From Variovorax sp. MHTC-1 (lineage in GTDB: Bacteria > Pseudomonadota > Gammaproteobacteria > Burkholderiales > Burkholderiaceae_C), in assembly GCF_003984645.1 (NCBI RefSeq), contig NZ_RWKI01000008.1:186001-250000 (forward strand): a DNA stretch of 64,000 bases, written 5' to 3'. Each line of letters starts with the position of its first letter. The stretch's first letter is position 1. Shown in pieces: positions 8,277 to 15,121 of the stretch. The notes beneath the pieces were generated by a model, which searched no databases, had not been told where the DNA came from, and saw nothing but the letters and a program-made list of their open reading frames with translations. The position numbers and the translations under genes are program-made.

Positions 8277-9545
8277 TCAGGCTTGCGCGAATGCGAAGTC
8301 GACTTCGGGCTTCAGGCCGCTTACGATGCGCGCGATCGATTTGCCCGAGCCGCAGGCGTGCGTCCAGCCCAGCGTGCCGTGTCCGGTGTTGAGGAACAGG
8401 TTGGGCAGCTTCGTCTTGCCGATCAGCGGCACGTTGCTCGGCGTGGCCGGACGCAGTCCGGTCCAGAACTGGGCCTGGCTGCTGTCGCCGGCGCCCGGGA
8501 ACAGTTCTTCGACGCGCCGCACGATGGCCTCGCAGCGCACCCGGTTCAGGTCGCGGTCGTAGCCGTTGAGTTCGGCCGTTCCCGCGATGCGCAGGCGGTC
8601 GCCGCTGGCCGAGGTGTAGCGCGAGAACACCAGCTTGTATTCATCATCGGTGAGGGAGACCTGGTGCGCCTTCGAGGCGTCCTTGACCGGCAGCGTGACC
8701 GAGTAGCCCTTGGCCGGATAGATCGGCAGCCGGATGCCCAGCGGCGCAGCATAGAGCGGGCTCAGCGAGCCCATCGCCAGCACGAAGGCATCGCCGCGGA
8801 TGCGCTGGAAGCGGCCTTCGTCGTCGGTCGCTTCCACGTGGTCGATGCTGCCACCGGTTTCGCGCAGCGCGGTCACGGTATGGCTCATCAGGAAGTTCAC
8901 GCCGGCGGCGGCCGCCAGGGCGACCAGCTCGCGCGCGAAGCGGTTGGCATCGCCCGATTCGTCTTGGGCCGTATAGGTGGCGCCGGCCAGCTGCGGCCGG
9001 ATGTGGGCCAGGGCAGGTTCGATCTTCACTGCCTCGTCGGCCGAGATCACCTGCCGCTCGCAGCCCAGTGCGCGCATCTGTTCGGCCGGCTTCAGCGCGC
9101 CGTCGAACTCCTTCTGCGTCGTATAGAAGTGCAGGATGCCTTGCGTGCGCTGGTCATAGCTGAGGCCGGTAGCGCGGCGCAACTGCTGCAGCGTGTCGCG
9201 GCTGTAGGTGCCCAGGCGCACGATCTGCTCGATGTTGTGGCGCGTGCGCGCCGGCGTGCATTCGCGCAGGAACTGCAGGCCCCAGAGCCACTGGCGCATG
9301 TCGGCGCGGATGCGAAAGAGCAGCGGCGCATCTTCCTTGCCGAGCCATTGCAGCACCTTCAGCGGCGCGCTCGGGTTTGCCCAGGGTTCGGCATGGCTGA
9401 CCGAGATCTGGCCACCGTTGGCGAAGCTGGTTTCGGCAGCCGGTGTGGCCTGCCGGTCGATCACGGTCACTTCGTGGCCGAGTTGCTGGAGGTAGTAAGC
9501 CGAGGTCACGCCGAGCAAGCCGGCGCCGAGAACGATCACGCGCAT
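8277..9545 (-). CDS. dadA: D-amino acid dehydrogenase
   Basis: 422 residues. The N-terminus carries the FAD-binding Rossmann motif GAGLLGVTSAYYL and the acidic end of strand 2 (VIDR). It is followed by the family motif ETSFANGGQIS near residues 39-49, and C-terminally by GLRPATPSNVPLIG and GHGTLGWTHACGSGK, all typical of DadA. The enzyme oxidatively deaminates D-amino acids to 2-oxo acids and ammonia and passes electrons to the respiratory chain. A tandem glycine riboswitch (9630-9836) lies 85 bases upstream on the same strand, so glycine probably controls expression. A divergent paralogue sits at 9867-11123. Confidence 0.92.
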   Translation of the reverse strand: MRVIVLGAGLLGVTSAYYLQQLGHEVTVIDRQATPAAETSFANGGQISVSHAEPWANPSAPLKVLQWLGKEDAPLLFRIRADMRQWLWGLQFLRECTPARTRHNIEQIVRLGTYSRDTLQQLRRATGLSYDQRTQGILHFYTTQKEFDGALKPAEQMRALGCERQVISADEAVKIEPALAHIRPQLAGATYTAQDESGDANRFARELVALAAAAGVNFLMSHTVTALRETGGSIDHVEATDDEGRFQRIRGDAFVLAMGSLSPLYAAPLGIRLPIYPAKGYSVTLPVKDASKAHQVSLTDDEYKLVFSRYTSASGDRLRIAGTAELNGYDRDLNRVRCEAIVRRVEELFPGAGDSSQAQFWTGLRPATPSNVPLIGKTKLPNLFLNTGHGTLGWTHACGSGKSIARIVSGLKPEVDFAFAQA

Positions 9546-9629
9546 TTCATGAACCCTTGAGGTGCAGCGCTTGAACGCGGAGAAACGGGAGCTCGAAAAG
9601 AAAGCAACCGGACCATGCGTCCAAGTTGC

Positions 9630-9836
9630 CGCTCCCCCTGTCCTCGGTACCTGAGAGATTCACCCGCTGCGCCCGCAGCAGGTTTGCTCCTTCGGTGCAT
9701 CACATGGCGTGATGGCTCTCCAGACGGCTTTGACAGTTGATGCAGTACAGGCTCATCGCGTGAGCCGACCTGAGCGTTTATGGGAGTTTGCGCCTTCGGT
9801 GGAGCCGCTTCAAGCGGCCCGCTCTCCTGCAGTGCC
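9630..9836 (-). promoter_or_regulatory. Tandem glycine riboswitch upstream of dadA
   Basis: Read on the minus strand, aptamer I (about 9836-9750) has GGAGAGC, CACCGAAGGCGCAAACTCCC and CGCTCAGGT. Aptamer II (about 9724-9630) has GGAGAGCC, CACCGAAGGAGCAAACC, AATCTCTCAGGTACCGAGG and ACAGGGGGAGC. These are the conserved blocks of the gcvT-type glycine riboswitch, which senses glycine with two adjacent aptamers. Aptamer I lacks the full GGACAGAG 3' block, as is common for the first member. No Rho-independent terminator is obvious between aptamer II and dadA, so control may be at translation. Confidence 0.92.
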
Positions 9837-9866
9837 GCGATTGTAGGCGCGGACGTCGGCCCGCGG

Positions 9867-11123
9867 CTACGGATTCCTGAAGGCGAACTCGAACTCGGGC
9901 CTGAGGCCGCTCACGATCCGGGCGATCGACTTGCCGGCGCCGCAGGCGTTGATCCACCCGCGCGCACCCGGCGCGACGTTGAGGAACAGGTTGAACAAGC
10001 GGGTCTTGCCGATCATCGGCAGGCCGTCACGGCTGACGGCGTGCACGGCCGTCTGGAGGGATGCATGCGCCGTGTCGGCCGCGCCGGGCAACAGCGACTC
10101 GATGCGGTGCAGGATGGCGTCGACGCGGTCCGAATCGGGTTCGTTCTCCTCGTCGAGGCTGGCGCGCACGGTGGAGGAGACCCGCAGGCAGTCGCCACCG
10201 GTCGTTTCGATGCGCCGTATGCGCAGCTTGCCCTGCCGGTCGCGCAGCGCGACGCGCGGTGCGCGGCTCGCGTCCTTGAGAGGGATCGTGACGATGTATT
10301 CGCGCAGGAAGCGAAAGGGCATGGCGATCTTCAGCCTTTCGGCGTGCATCGCGCTGGAAATGCCGAGTGCGAGCACATAGGCCTGGCCGCGCAAGACGGT
10401 GGGCTGGCCATTGGCATCGAGCAGTTCGACGTGCTCGATGCGCCCTGCGCGTTCCTTCAGCGAAATTACCGTGTGCTGGGTGAGGAAGCGCACGCCGGCC
10501 GCGCGGCACAGGAACACCATGCTGGCCGCGAACTGGGCCGGATCGCGCGTCGCCGGATCGTCGAGCGAGTAGGCCGCACCGGCGAGCTCACCGCGAAGGG
10601 CTTGCAGGGCCGGTTCGATGTGCAGCGCCTCTTCGGCCGAGACAAGGCGCTCTTCGCAGCCCAGCGCATGCCAATGAGAGGCGCGCGCCAGCCGGGCGTT
10701 GAAGGCGTCGGCATCGGTGTAGAAGCTCAGCAGGCCGGCGTTGCGCTGGCCCGGGGGCACGCCGGCTTCGTCGCGCAGCGAACGCACGATGCCGCGGCTG
10801 TAGGCGCCCAGCCGGACAAGGTGCTCGATCGGCTTTGATTTGGGCGCCTCGCCGATGACGCGATCGAGCAGCTTTGCGAAGCGTCGCCGCAGGCTCACGT
10901 AGCTCACGTACAGCCCCAACCATTTCGCGCGGGCGGCACGGCGAGCGGCGGACTGCCGAAGGAGCTGGGCGGCCGCGGCCGTGACGGCCGTTTCGACGCG
11001 CCCGCGCGCCTTGGCCGCCGGCGTGGCGTGCCTGTCGATCACGATCACTTCGTGGCCCAGCTGTTGAAGGTAATAGGCCGATGTCACGCCGAGCAAGCCG
11101 GCGCCGAGTACAACCACGCGCAT
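9867..11123 (-). CDS. Divergent DadA-like FAD-dependent oxidoreductase with a degenerate motif
   Basis: 418 residues from the ATG preceded by AAAAGGA (an in-frame ATG at 11147 has no ribosome binding site). The FAD-binding start GAGLLGVTSAYYLQQLGHEV is nearly identical to dadA at 8277-9545, and the C-terminus GWINACGAGKSIARIVSGL is also close. In between it has drifted. The ETSFANGGQ motif is replaced by an ETAVTAAAAQ stretch after an extra KARGR segment, residues about 45-90 are unrelated and Arg/Ala-rich, GLRPATPSNVPLIG has become AVHAVSRDGLPMIG, and GHGTLGW has become APGARGW. The frame nevertheless stays open. It may be a decaying duplicate or an enzyme with a new substrate. A second glycine riboswitch precedes it. 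Confidence 0.75.
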   Translation of the reverse strand: MRVVVLGAGLLGVTSAYYLQQLGHEVIVIDRHATPAAKARGRVETAVTAAAAQLLRQSAARRAARAKWLGLYVSYVSLRRRFAKLLDRVIGEAPKSKPIEHLVRLGAYSRGIVRSLRDEAGVPPGQRNAGLLSFYTDADAFNARLARASHWHALGCEERLVSAEEALHIEPALQALRGELAGAAYSLDDPATRDPAQFAASMVFLCRAAGVRFLTQHTVISLKERAGRIEHVELLDANGQPTVLRGQAYVLALGISSAMHAERLKIAMPFRFLREYIVTIPLKDASRAPRVALRDRQGKLRIRRIETTGGDCLRVSSTVRASLDEENEPDSDRVDAILHRIESLLPGAADTAHASLQTAVHAVSRDGLPMIGKTRLFNLFLNVAPGARGWINACGAGKSIARIVSGLRPEFEFAFRNP

Positions 11124-11203
11124 GTCCGGATCCTTTTGGGATGGCATGAACGGCGGGCTGGTCGCTCACCGTGCGGAGCCGCCTTAACCCGGGGTTCAGA
11201 TGC

Positions 11204-11403
11204 CGCTCCCCCTGTCCTCGATACCTGAGAGATTCATCCGCTGCGACCTGCAACGGACTTGCTCCTTCGGTGCATCACCTGGCGTGATGACTCTCCAGAC
11301 GGCGATTGATGAAGTGAGCAGTGACCGAACCGATACGAGGTTCACCTGAGCGTTCATGGGAGTTTGCGCCAACGGTGGGATGTCGATGCATCCGCTTTTC
11401 TGC
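11204..11403 (-). promoter_or_regulatory. Second tandem glycine riboswitch, upstream of the DadA paralogue
   Basis: On the minus strand, aptamer I (about 11403-11320) shows CACCGTTGGCGCAAACTCCC and CGCTCAGGT. Aptamer II (about 11296-11204) shows GGAGAGTC, CACCGAAGGAGCAAG, AATCTCTCAGGTATCGAGG and ACAGGGGGAGCGG. The layout and much of the sequence repeat the riboswitch at 9630-9836, so leader and gene were duplicated together. A TAAAAT hexamer at about 11411-11416 (minus strand) could be the -10 box of its promoter. Confidence 0.9.
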
Positions 11404-11440
11404 GGTAGAATTTTAGCTTAGGAACCGGTTTCTTACCCTT

Positions 11441-12175
11441 TCATGCGCGGCGCAGCCGGGTGAACAGCTCGAACTCCCAGTTGCGCATGCCCAACAGCAG
11501 CGTGTAGCCCTCGCGCTCCTTGGGTGAGAGCTTCTGGTCGGTCTGGTGCTGCTGGGCGAAATCCTGGGCCACGCGCTGCAGCCGGTCCAGAAAGGCTGGC
11601 GCCAGCGAGCGGCTGATCGAGCCGTGAACCAGCAGCAGGCCTTCGGCCGGCCCGTCGAAACCGCCGCGGTAGTAGTCGAGCACCACGTTCTCGCGAAAGA
11701 AGTCCATCACCGGTCCGTGCGGGCGCCAGCGGAAAGTCTTGGCGAGTTTCAGGCGGTAGCGATTCAGCGGCCGGAGCTCGATGATGCCGATGCGGTCGAG
11801 CTGCGCGAGGTAACCGATGCATTCGGCCTCGCTGATGCGGTAGGCGGTCACGATCTGCTCCAGCGTCCATTGGCTCAGGACGCAAATGGCCAGCAGCAGC
11901 AGCTTCTTGTCCTTGACCACGGCCTTTTCCTGCTCGAGCGTCAGTTCCTTGAGCAGCGGCTGCGCGTCGGCCACGCGGCGCGCGAGCTCGGCGAAGTCGA
12001 TCTTCAGCGCACGGCAGATCGCATCGACCCGCGTGAGCGGCATGTCGCCCTTGGCGAGCATGCGCTTGACGCTGGATTCGGCCATGTCGAGCGACTTGGC
12101 GAGGTCCGCATAGGTCATGCGCGCGGTCTTGAGCTCGTTCTTCAGAGCCTGCACGAGATCGACGGTGGTGCTCAT
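11441..12175 (-). CDS. XRE-type helix-turn-helix regulator with a long C-terminal domain
   Basis: 244 residues starting MSTTVDLVQAL. Residues about 18-60 form a Cro/CI-type helix-turn-helix (TYADLAKSLDMAESSVKRML followed by LTRVDAICRAL). The remaining 180 residues include a second predicted winged-helix-like segment (LSQWTLEQIVTAYRISEAEC) and a charged C-terminus that I cannot assign. It is divergent from the membrane protein at 12296. Repeated GGTATCG-type motifs in the 120 bases between the two genes may be its binding sites (inference). Whether it activates or represses is unknown. Confidence 0.75.
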   Translation of the reverse strand: MSTTVDLVQALKNELKTARMTYADLAKSLDMAESSVKRMLAKGDMPLTRVDAICRALKIDFAELARRVADAQPLLKELTLEQEKAVVKDKKLLLLAICVLSQWTLEQIVTAYRISEAECIGYLAQLDRIGIIELRPLNRYRLKLAKTFRWRPHGPVMDFFRENVVLDYYRGGFDGPAEGLLLVHGSISRSLAPAFLDRLQRVAQDFAQQHQTDQKLSPKEREGYTLLLGMRNWEFELFTRLRRA

Positions 12176-12295: not shown

Positions 12296-13138
12296 ATGCC
12301 TCTGCCTTCTCTGACCCGCCGCGAATGGGGCCTCTTGTCCTTTTTCGCCTTGCTCCTGCTGCTCGCGATCGCCGGTCCCGCACTGCCGGCGTTTGGGCTG
12401 GGCGGCGCGCCTTTTGCCGACGACCGAGGCTGGCACGGCGTGCCCTACGCGATGGACGTGCTGAGCAACCTGCCGTTCGCGGTGATCGGCGTCTGGGGGC
12501 TGCGCTGGCTGCATTGGCTCGAACGGGCGCACGAGGACGCGCAGGACGACGCGCCGCTGCCCCAGGCCATGTCCCAGCCGCCGGTCAACACACTCGACTG
12601 CGCCTGGATGTTCTTTGCCGGCCTGATCCTCACCGCCGCCGGCTCGGCCTTCTACCACCTGCAGCCCGACGGTCTGCGGCTGGCGGCGGACCGCGCCGGC
12701 ATGGCGGTGGCCTTCGCCGGCCTGATCGGCTGTGCCGTCTGCGAGCGGGTCAGCGCCCGTGCCGGCTGGCCGGTGGCCTGGTTCACGCTGGCCGGCGGGC
12801 TGCTGGCCGTGGCCGTCCACCAGGTGAGCGGCAACCTGCTGCCGTGGGCGCTGGTCCAGTTCGGCGGCATGGCGCTGGTGCTCGCGCTGGCCCTTGCCAG
12901 GCCGCTCGCCGGCGCAGTCGGCCTCAGGCTCGGCTGGGTGATCTTCTTCTACGCGCTGGCCAAGCTGTTCGAGCTGTCGGACCATGCCGTCTACGAAGCG
13001 ACGCATCAACTGATGTCGGGCCACAGCCTCAAGCACCTGGTGGCGGCGCTGGCGGCGCTGCCGGTGCTGCATGCGCTGCAGTCCATGGGGCGGCAGGCGC
13101 TGCGGCACAATCCGGGCGCGGCCGCGGTGACGGCCTGA
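12296..13138 (+). CDS. CREST-like (alkaline ceramidase-related) integral membrane protein
   Basis: 280 residues with about seven hydrophobic segments. Three polar motifs lie inside or at the edge of membrane segments: SAFYHL (near residue 118), DRAGM (near 134) and HSLKHL (near 243). Ser, Asp and HxxxH in this order are the signature of the CREST superfamily of membrane hydrolases (alkaline ceramidases, Per1, PAQR). A zinc-dependent lipid amidase or related activity is therefore plausible but unproven. The next genes encode a lysophospholipid flippase-acyltransferase and a PAP2-like protein, which supports a membrane-lipid role. Confidence 0.6.
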   Translation: MPLPSLTRREWGLLSFFALLLLLAIAGPALPAFGLGGAPFADDRGWHGVPYAMDVLSNLPFAVIGVWGLRWLHWLERAHEDAQDDAPLPQAMSQPPVNTLDCAWMFFAGLILTAAGSAFYHLQPDGLRLAADRAGMAVAFAGLIGCAVCERVSARAGWPVAWFTLAGGLLAVAVHQVSGNLLPWALVQFGGMALVLALALARPLAGAVGLRLGWVIFFYALAKLFELSDHAVYEATHQLMSGHSLKHLVAALAALPVLHALQSMGRQALRHNPGAAAVTA

Positions 13139-13159: not shown

Positions 13160-15121
13160 ATGACAGCACCGGTCGACGTCTCCATTGCCATCGCGCCCGA
13201 AGCGCATACGCACGCCAATCAGTTCGCCTTGCTCGGGCAGCGGAGGTTCGCCCCCTTCTTCTGGACCCAGTTCGCAGGCGCGGCGAACGACAACCTGTTC
13301 AAGTTCGCATTCACCGTGATGGTGACCTACCAGCTGCAGCTGAGCTGGATGCCTCCGACCATGGCAGGCCTCGCGATCGGCGCACTCTTCATCCTGCCCT
13401 TCCTGCTGTTCTCGGCGACGGCGGGGCAGCTTACCGACAAGTACGACAAGACGAAGATGATCCGCTTCGTCAAGAACCTCGAGATCGCGATCATGGCGGT
13501 GGCGGCCTGGGGCTTCATGCGGCCCGATGCCGTGGTGCTGCTGGGCTGCGTGTTCCTGATGGGGCTGCACTCCACGCTGTTCGGTCCGGTCAAGTTCGCC
13601 TACCTGCCGCAGGTGCTCGACGCGCGGGAGCTCACCGGCGGCAACGGCATGGTCGAGATGGGGACCTTCGTCGCCATTTTGCTGGGACAGGTGGCCGGCG
13701 GCCTTCTCGTTGCATTGCCGCAAGTCGGCCACACCACGGTGGCGGTGGCTTGCGTGCTGCTGGCGCTGGCGGGGCGCGCCGCGGCGCAGGCGATTCCGCC
13801 CGCGCCGGCCACCGATCCGGGCTTGGTGATCAACTGGAACCCGTTCAGCGAGACCTGGCGCAATCTCAAGCTGGCCCACGGCAACCTGGTCGTGTTCCGT
13901 TCGCTCCTGGGCATCTCGTGGATGTGGTTCTTCGGCGCCGTGTTCCTGAGCCAGTTTCCGAGCTTCGCGAAAGAGGTGCTGCACGGCAACGAGCAGGTCG
14001 CCTCGCTGCTCCTGGTGGTGTTCTCGGTCGGCATCGGCATCGGCTCGCTGCTGTGCGAAACCCTGAGCCGCCGCCAGGTGGAGATCGGCCTGGTGCCGCT
14101 GGGCGCGATCGGCATGAGCGTGTTCGCGATCGATCTCTACTTCGCCTCGCGCGCGCTGCCGAATGCGACTGAGATGGGGCTGGGTGCCTTCACGGCCCAG
14201 TCCGCGCATTGGCGCGTGATGGCCGATCTCGGCCTGCTGTCGCTCTTCGCCGGGCTCTACAGCGTGCCGATGTATGCGCTGATCCAGCTGCGCAGCCAGC
14301 CCACGCACCGGGCACGGATCATCGCGGCCAACAACATCCTCAATGCGCTGTTCATGATCGGCAGCGCGGTCATTGCCGGCGCGCTGCTCAAGGCCGGCTT
14401 CACGATCCCGCAGATCTTCTTGTTCACCGGCATCGCCAATGCGGTGGTGGCCTGCTACATCTTCCTGCTGGTGCCGGAGTACCTGCTGCGCTTCGTGGCC
14501 TGGGTGCTGTCGCGCATCGTCTATCGCTTCGACGTCGAGGGCGAGCAGCACATTCCGGCCGAAGGTGCGGCCGTGCTGGTCTGCAACCACGTGAGCTTCA
14601 TCGATGCGGTGCTGCTGATGGCCGCGAGCCCGCGGCCGATCCGCTTCATCATGGACCACCGCATCTTCCGCGTGCCGGTGCTCGGGTGGCTGTTCAGGCT
14701 CGCCAAGGCCATTCCGATCGCGCCGCAGAAGGAAGATCCGGCAGCCTACGAGGAAGCCTTTGCCCGCGCGGTGCAGGTGCTGCGCGAGGGCGACCTGCTC
14801 GCCATCTTTCCGGAGGGCGCCATCACGCGCGATGGCAGCCTGCAGCCCTTCAAGGGCGGCGTGATGAAGATCCTGGAGGCTGCACGCGCCGAAGGCATCG
14901 ATGTGCCGGTGATCCCGATGGCGCTGACCAACCTCTGGGGCTCGTACTTCAGCCGCATCGAGGTGCGCGAGGGCGCAAACGTGGCGATGGTGCGTCCGTT
15001 TCGGCGCGGTCTATTCAGCCGGGTGGGACTCCGTGTCGGCAGCGCGATGGCGCATGCGGATGTGCAGCCCGAGGCTTTGCAGCGGCGTGTGAGCAGGCTG
15101 CTGGAAAGCCATCCGAGCTGA
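13160..15121 (+). CDS. LplT-type MFS flippase fused to a PlsC-type acyltransferase
   Basis: 653 residues. The N-terminal ~425 residues form a 12-helix major facilitator transporter resembling LplT (FWTQFAGAANDNLFKFAF near residue 36, then KYDKTKMIR). The C-terminal ~210 residues form a glycerolipid acyltransferase with the HX4D motif NHVSFID (near 476) and the FPEGAITRDG block (near 551). LplT flips lysophospholipids inward and Aas re-acylates them; here one polypeptide would do both. The AMP-binding acyl-ACP synthetase domain of Aas is absent, so an acyl donor must come from elsewhere. The stop overlaps the next start (TGATG). Confidence 0.88.
   Translation: MTAPVDVSIAIAPEAHTHANQFALLGQRRFAPFFWTQFAGAANDNLFKFAFTVMVTYQLQLSWMPPTMAGLAIGALFILPFLLFSATAGQLTDKYDKTKMIRFVKNLEIAIMAVAAWGFMRPDAVVLLGCVFLMGLHSTLFGPVKFAYLPQVLDARELTGGNGMVEMGTFVAILLGQVAGGLLVALPQVGHTTVAVACVLLALAGRAAAQAIPPAPATDPGLVINWNPFSETWRNLKLAHGNLVVFRSLLGISWMWFFGAVFLSQFPSFAKEVLHGNEQVASLLLVVFSVGIGIGSLLCETLSRRQVEIGLVPLGAIGMSVFAIDLYFASRALPNATEMGLGAFTAQSAHWRVMADLGLLSLFAGLYSVPMYALIQLRSQPTHRARIIAANNILNALFMIGSAVIAGALLKAGFTIPQIFLFTGIANAVVACYIFLLVPEYLLRFVAWVLSRIVYRFDVEGEQHIPAEGAAVLVCNHVSFIDAVLLMAASPRPIRFIMDHRIFRVPVLGWLFRLAKAIPIAPQKEDPAAYEEAFARAVQVLREGDLLAIFPEGAITRDGSLQPFKGGVMKILEAARAEGIDVPVIPMALTNLWGSYFSRIEVREGANVAMVRPFRRGLFSRVGLRVGSAMAHADVQPEALQRRVSRLLESHPS

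Follow-up and report, generated by a model that had tools for sequence, protein, structure and literature searches.

Does a tandem glycine riboswitch keep both of its aptamers once the leader and the gene behind it have been duplicated? This question is raised by a locus of Variovorax sp. MHTC-1 (contig NZ_RWKI01000008.1, positions 186,001–250,000; this stretch of 64,000 nucleotides is called the window below), in which two glycine riboswitch leaders each precede a gene of the DAO/DadA family. The cassette lies on the minus strand and reads, from 5′ to 3′, B leader (11408–11202), gene B (11123–9867), A leader (9839–9628) with its platform, and gene A (9545–8277). The answer that we consider likely is that A is a glycine-induced amino-acid dehydrogenase and that B is a conserved pseudoenzyme under a single-site, “one-and-a-half” glycine switch, an intermediate between a tandem and a type-2 singlet riboswitch.

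Two Leaders of Unequal Integrity

The genes and aptamers of the cassette are as follows.

8277–9545, minus strand: gene A, a canonical DadA-type D-amino acid dehydrogenase dependent on flavin adenine dinucleotide (FAD), 422 residues; 496.7 bits with NF001933 (cut-off 383), 227 bits with Pfam DAO
9628–9733, minus strand: aptamer II of the A leader; RF00504, 57.8 bits, E-value 2.5e-9
9749–9839, minus strand: aptamer I of the A leader; RF00504, 39.1 bits, E-value 2.2e-4, core intact (GGAGAG, CCGAAGG)
9867–11123, minus strand: gene B, a DadA-derived paralogue and predicted pseudoenzyme, 418 residues; 213 bits with NF001933 (cut-off 383)
11202–11308, minus strand: aptamer II of the B leader, intact; RF00504, 53.9 bits, E-value 2.7e-8
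11324–11408, minus strand: degenerate aptamer I of the B leader; RF00504, 17.2 bits, E-value 4.1 in a 2.1-kb search, GAAAAG for GGAGAG and CCGUUGG for CCGAAGG

An earlier sequence-only reading had placed each leader 5′ of a dadA-like gene on the same strand; the RF00504 matches and the protein models agreed, both units lying on the minus strand. The aptamer II cores which it quoted were present in both leaders, and its interval ended at 11403, barely inside the B leader. It had also described two tandem-aptamer leaders and suggested a covariance check of both. A covariance search of the 64-kb window was run, the gathering cut-off of RF00504 being 32 bits. Both aptamers of the A leader (57.8 and 39.1 bits) and the second aptamer of the B leader (53.9 bits) were above this value, so that the A leader is indeed tandem. 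The B leader falls short of a full tandem, as its first aptamer, for which a permissive search of positions 9500–11600 was used, failed the cut-off with 17.2 bits.

Over the 29 B loci of the genus, aptamer II passed RF00504 in 28 and aptamer I in a single one (L049, 33.9 bits). Aptamer I of A passed in 18 of the 20 loci holding both B and A. Core motifs were counted for genes distinct by their first 200 residues and having at least 300 bases of upstream sequence; before the 29 Variovorax B genes, the aptamer II core was found in 28 cases and an intact aptamer I core in none. The only B gene of the genus without a riboswitch (L086/L119, Variovorax sp. J22P168) represents a natural leader loss.

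The first aptamer was aligned over 71 distinct A regions and 29 distinct B regions (28 from the genus, plus L153), leaving out 11 leaders without recognisable aptamers (10 A-type leaders from outside Variovorax and one B leader). CCGAAGG was kept in all 71 A leaders and the letters of GGAGAG in 70–71 of them. Several of the core letters near-invariant in A were largely lost in B: G35 was kept in only 7 of the 29 leaders, G37 in 5, A74 in 9, A75 in 8, and G160 and U161 in one each. The G was replaced by A at column 35 in 19 leaders and at column 37 in 24. Many other letters were kept in 27–29 of the 29 leaders, namely GCAG of P1, A38 and G39, ACC, CUCCCAU, AACGC, GG103 and ACUGC, to which GGCGCAA can be added but for single cases. 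Further columns were kept in 24 (C40, G102 and U104), 25 (A36) or 26 leaders (G73). In the RF00504 structure, the partner of A74 is the U of CUCAGG, and the internal loop next to this pair contains A75; we take this region, at the internal loop of P3, to be the glycine pocket. When the changes were placed on the B protein tree, six were counted at G35, three at G37, eight at A74, six at A75, eight at G160, five at U161 and eight at A167, and none in the GCAG, ACC, CUCCCAU and CUGC columns. Since the core changes are repeated and unfixed and the scaffold is largely fixed, aptamer I of B fits a retained but unliganded aptamer. Of the 68 columns of aptamer II that are invariant in A, 59 are conserved in B, each in 90% or more of 28 leaders. 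The B leader of L153, an unclassified metagenome-assembled genome (MAG) which holds B and A in tandem, still has CCGAAGG.

The window's genome also holds a standard tandem glycine riboswitch before a GcvT-like gene (named by eye). A third glycine riboswitch of this genome, scoring 57.7 bits (L105, G000:C59, 7486–8127), precedes a dadA-like frame with an internal deletion, and the whole element is a decayed extra riboswitch and dadA cassette.

A Dehydrogenase and a Predicted Pseudoenzyme

Gene A is well above the curated cut-off of NF001933, the NCBIfam DadA model (496.7 against 383 bits), and gene B is below it (213 bits). As B is in addition only 46% identical to A, the label dadA, which the sequence-only reading had given to both genes, fits the downstream gene A only. 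Gene B has a PF01266 DAO domain (149 bits). The NGG, LRPAT and GHGTLGW motifs of A, including the LRPAT arginine and the GHG motif, were absent from the 29 B proteins of the genus (the window and L067–L094), and the three motifs are also missing from the B protein of L153. The arginine of LRPAT presumably has a substrate-binding role in the oxidase. An alignment of 25 B proteins showed near-invariance both in the Rossmann N-terminus and in a stretch GAGKSIA.IV at the C-terminal side. An AlphaFold model of B built with 25 sequences showed a DAO fold with a mean predicted local distance difference test score of 78, poor at approximately residues 32–95, and its best Foldseek match was the glycine oxidase 4ysh (E-value 3.5e-19, 18% identity). 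The suggestion that leader and gene had been duplicated together was correct as regards the duplication, but the upstream copy has apparently turned into a conserved gene for a pseudoenzyme, behind a riboswitch that is half-inactivated.

The RF00504 scores and the conserved cores give good support, at the sequence level, to the proposal that glycine controls the gene of an amino-acid-oxidising flavoenzyme. That glycine, as an achiral relative, would serve only as a signal for D-amino acids is one option; the alternative is that glycine is itself the substrate of A. The best match to A among solved structures was again 4ysh (E-value 9.8e-18), and the next one is named FAD-dependent glycine oxidase. 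However, A did not reach the cut-off of the ThiO glycine oxidase model TIGR02352 (112.8 against 250.8 bits), so that glycine as a substrate is a guess. The simplest account of an induction by glycine would be that A burns glycine, or an amino acid which rises along with glycine. A route from glycine through glyoxylate could then be drawn, and malate synthase is reported, in the part of PMC2211319 available, to be under glycine riboswitches in other bacteria. A suppression of synonymous changes at the start of A, hinted at by pairwise values, was not clear over 1673 pairs and was dropped. Two contigs of Variovorax sp. OV700 (L181 and L183) both stop within an A-type dadA frame, after approximately 67 codons, as would be expected if the assembly had been broken by two similar copies of A.

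Expression Platforms and Proposed Mechanism

The expression platforms hold the following helices.

9604–9629, minus strand: hairpin T of the A platform, GCAACUUGGAC:GUCCGGUUGC, followed by UUUCUUUU at 9603–9596, resembling a terminator; the outer GC pairs of T and the 3′ end of P1 overlap
9570–9625, minus strand: helix H1 of the A platform, CUUGGAC (9625–9619) with GUUCAAG (9576–9570), mutually exclusive with T
11147–11198, minus strand: helix H1 of the B platform, UGAAC (11198–11194) with GUUCA (11151–11147), at the same position as H1 of A

In the A platform, T and H1 compete for the same CUUGGAC strand. RNAfold predicted the GCCG:CGGC pairing in P1 of aptamer II with a probability of about 1 in the A leader of the window, 0.97 in the B leader of L090 and 0.64 in the B leader of the window; with this pairing, the 3′ end of P1 takes in the GGC that hairpin T also uses as its foot. 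Over 30 A leaders, both-side changes were seen at five of the seven pairs of H1 (0 of 500 shuffles) and at two of the nine pairs of T (42 of 500 shuffles), the latter with five double-change cells (0 of 500). In the B platform, 93.1% of the H1 cells were paired against 28–48% when the helix was slid. Covariation over 24 B leaders was weak, both for H1 (both-side changes at two of nine pairs, 80 of 500 shuffles; three double-change cells, 17 of 500) and for a local anti-Shine-Dalgarno hairpin (one of four pairs, 191 of 500 shuffles). In the short A leaders, a pairing of GGGGGAG and CUCCC is possible right before the start codon. This pairing and the terminator-like position of UUUCUUUU after T favour a glycine ON switch for A, the polarity towards which we lean.

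We propose the following sequence of events. A tandem glycine riboswitch and dadA cassette would have been duplicated in tandem at or before the Variovorax radiation. The downstream copy A would still be an amino-acid dehydrogenase of the DadA type, with glycine as its most likely inducer: on binding, the ligand would close P1 of aptamer II. Since the foot of T is formed by the 3′ end of this P1, termination or blocked translation would be relieved, and the enzyme would then oxidise amino acids, possibly glycine itself. The upstream copy B would have lost its catalytic motifs and been retained as a pseudoenzyme whose N-terminus is of the dinucleotide-binding type, acting as a regulator, as a partner or with an altered activity. 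Its riboswitch would have lost the core letters of aptamer I, and with them probably its glycine pocket, keeping the scaffold of this aptamer and a full aptamer II. The B leader would thus act as a single-site glycine switch in which aptamer I serves as scaffold, as in a type-2 singlet. The two leaders, the losses, the retained scaffold, the purifying selection and the single B clade are observed.

Several points weigh against this reading. Glycine binding, the choice of the binding aptamer, the ON polarity of A and the role of B are all things that we infer from sequence, and catalysis in B is predicted to be lost from its motifs. The P1 pairing of the B leader in the window is less sure than that of the A leader. 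In aptamer I of B, other letters have also changed, some of them outside the presumed pocket (A167 kept in 4 of 29 leaders, A83 in 19, U98 in 20, G76 and C99 in 21 each), and G43 and C66 were kept in nine leaders each, with a matched change from G-C to A-U. Concerning the polarity, the U-run UUUCUUUU following T in the window is missing, for example, from L146. Two-state folding gave a mixed picture: the change in opening of the ribosome site exceeded +1 kcal/mol, an ON-like value, in only 13 of 70 A platforms and was below −1 kcal/mol in 26. All five short leaders (L088, L089, L103, L142 and L168) were above +1 kcal/mol; as they are among the 13 ON-like ones, the long A leaders lean the opposite way.

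The same calculation for 29 B platforms gave 6 values above +1 kcal/mol and 19 below −1, and it is conceivable, though unlikely, that A and B are of opposite polarity, glycine turning A on and B off. The 19 B platforms are more accessible when the 3′ strand of P1 is free, H1 of B shares GGC with P1, and the five short A leaders together with the overlap of the terminator in the window favour ON for A. However, six B platforms shift by more than 1 kcal/mol in the reverse sense and 26 A platforms lean like those of B, so that the folding model may simply be biased. A broader version, to which we give slightly less credit, is that the duplicated leaders split the work: in A, two glycine sites would switch the oxidase on, and B, whose first aptamer would be dead or retuned and whose long platform helix competes with P1, would answer to a second ligand or with the reverse sign. 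Glycine would then raise the enzyme and lower a catalytically dead, modulating partner.

Distribution and Ancestry

B was found at 50% identity or more in 29 of the 101 genomes of the genus, including that of the window, and some relative was present in 100 of them with an E-value of at most 1e-20. The B identities were 95% in Variovorax paradoxus ISL-79, 91% in Variovorax sp. CF079 and 86% in V. paradoxus ISL-3. The loci in which the aptamer cores were counted had been chosen because they resemble A and B, and are not a random sample. Among them, all 61 distinct Variovorax A-type dadA genes were preceded by both aptamer cores. The sequence-only reading had found the pairing of this riboswitch with dadA unusual; within Variovorax it is the rule, and the pairing is a regular feature of this genus and of some relatives. 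Both cores were indeed present before 8 of the 18 A-type genes from outside Variovorax, these being from Ramlibacter, Acidovorax, Comamonas, Polaromonas, three unclassified Burkholderiales/Burkholderiaceae and L153. The ten others, not preceded by both cores, came from MAGs that are beta-proteobacterial or unclassified; three bear the label Bordetella parapertussis.

In a quick tree, B formed one clade on a long stem (30 rows, Shimodaira–Hasegawa-like approximate likelihood ratio test support of 100), the B of L153 being flagged as a long branch. As B is one clade, and its subgroups, judged by eye, match those of A, it was probably inherited vertically and often lost. At the 28 fetched B loci, a single order was observed, with a helix-turn-helix gene (HTH_26; 11448–12173 in the window) immediately preceding B and a FIST gene on the far side of the cassette. 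At nine of these loci, no A was found beside B. In L148 and L162, relatives without B, the helix-turn-helix gene adjoins A.

Decay, Retuning and Gene Conversion

Could B be a decaying pseudogene, with its leader eroding along with the gene? The rate of nonsynonymous substitution (dN) was higher for B than for A in the 14 genome pairs where both were compared, and the ratio to the synonymous rate (dN/dS) was 0.09–0.36 in 16 B pairs against 0.03–0.15 in 14 A pairs, rising to 0.15–0.59 in the relaxed residues 38–100 of B. The long stem of the B clade, the presence of B in only 29 of 101 genomes and the leader loss in L086/L119 point in the same direction. However, the frame was open in all 29 genus genomes carrying B, the dN/dS of the whole gene stayed low, and the C-terminal GAGKSIA.IV stretch was near-invariant. 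Furthermore, aptamer II was over the cut-off in all but one of the 29 leaders, many columns of aptamer I were unchanged, and B had been kept at the nine fetched loci without an adjacent A. A pseudogene is therefore quite improbable.

It is even less probable that aptamer I of B was retuned to another ligand, so that the leader would integrate glycine and a second metabolite. Variant glycine riboswitches are mentioned in the available part of PMC6944388, the fold of aptamer I is kept while its core letters change, and the replacement of G by A prevails at columns 35 and 37. Columns 74–75, however, carry all four letters and have changed eight and six times on the tree, which looks like relaxed constraint and not like a new fixed pocket.

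Gene conversion between A and B, in place of selection on the RNA, as the source of the near identity of the two aptamers II was rejected as very unlikely: this identity was highest, at 0.89–0.91, in the window and its three closest relatives, but over 20 genomes its mean was 0.804 within genomes and 0.802 between genomes, the first 105 coding bases gave 0.840 and 0.838, and the best between-genome value for the window (0.902) equals its own. A local conversion event may have taken place in the group of the window.

Other Features of the Region

An additional site was seen upstream of the B leader.

11421–11432, strand not assigned: palindromic operator-like site close to GAAACCGGTTTC, with one mismatch in the window

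The palindrome stands before a TAAAAT resembling a −10 box. Among distinct upstream regions, the pattern GAAACCGGTT[TC]C occurred in 20 of 30 for B and in none of 81 for A. The two exact sites in the genome are located elsewhere, one of the genes nearby being a transporter gene of the TctC type and another a PfkB-like sugar kinase gene (both named by eye), and a LacI-type operator is a guess drawn from them. No family was found for the neighbouring gene at 12296. On the plus strand, positions 13860–13981 of the window matched the small RNA family Bcj11 (RF02835) with 72 bits, inside a coding frame of the same strand (13160–15121). The family also scored in L153 (83.6 bits). Given these two matches and the coding frame, Bcj11 may be a conserved coding sequence.

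Relation to Known Systems and Significance

Ruff reportedly described, in 2016, a type-2 singlet glycine riboswitch with a 5′ ghost aptamer. Like tandem glycine riboswitches (RF00504, for example in gcvT leaders), the A leader has two aptamers and one platform. It differs from them in controlling dadA and not gcv, and in that its aptamer I (9749–9839, minus strand) bears an extra hairpin replacing the consensus A-rich segment before the 3′ strand of P1. This hairpin of the dadA class is variable and is absent from leaders such as L148 and L170. The B leader resembles the type-2 singlet as presented in the available part of PMC6944388, in which a ghost aptamer lies 5′ of the ligand-binding one: only its second aptamer keeps a full core, and the first, having lost core letters and kept most aptamer columns, would be a 5′ scaffold. 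Because so many letters are retained in this first element, the B leader can be placed between a tandem and a type-2 singlet. It differs in preceding a dadA-derived gene, when, according to the same source, 90% of type-2 singlets precede transporters. As regards the proteins, A passes the DadA model of the DadA/glycine oxidase family (NF001933, PF01266; PDB 4ysh) and B shares the DAO domain and fold, but B is below the DadA cut-off and is devoid of NGG, LRPAT and GHGTLGW.

Among the papers listed by a literature search of one library, none joined a glycine riboswitch with a D-amino acid dehydrogenase or with Variovorax; the matches to glycine riboswitch and “dadA”, as far as their text was available, concerned Dickeya dadantii or Dadabacteria only. 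The word dadA was absent from the main texts of PMC3766115 and PMC12452182; such a link may already be listed elsewhere. From what is available of the respective papers, a mutated pocket in aptamer I weakens the glycine response of tandem switches without abolishing it, both in B. subtilis (PMC5666159) and in N. gonorrhoeae (PMC13104608). The evolution from tandem to singlet and the importance of the second ligand site in the cell are debated, according to the available parts of PMC6944388 and PMC5666159.

The locus connects glycine riboswitches with genes of the dadA type and with a predicted pseudoenzyme that is conserved. It places, in one genome and before related genes, an intact tandem leader beside a leader in which only the core of the first aptamer is eroded, thus providing a natural control, and this state recurs across the genus. 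The duplicate can be regarded as an experiment of nature on the way in which a double sensor may turn into a single one.

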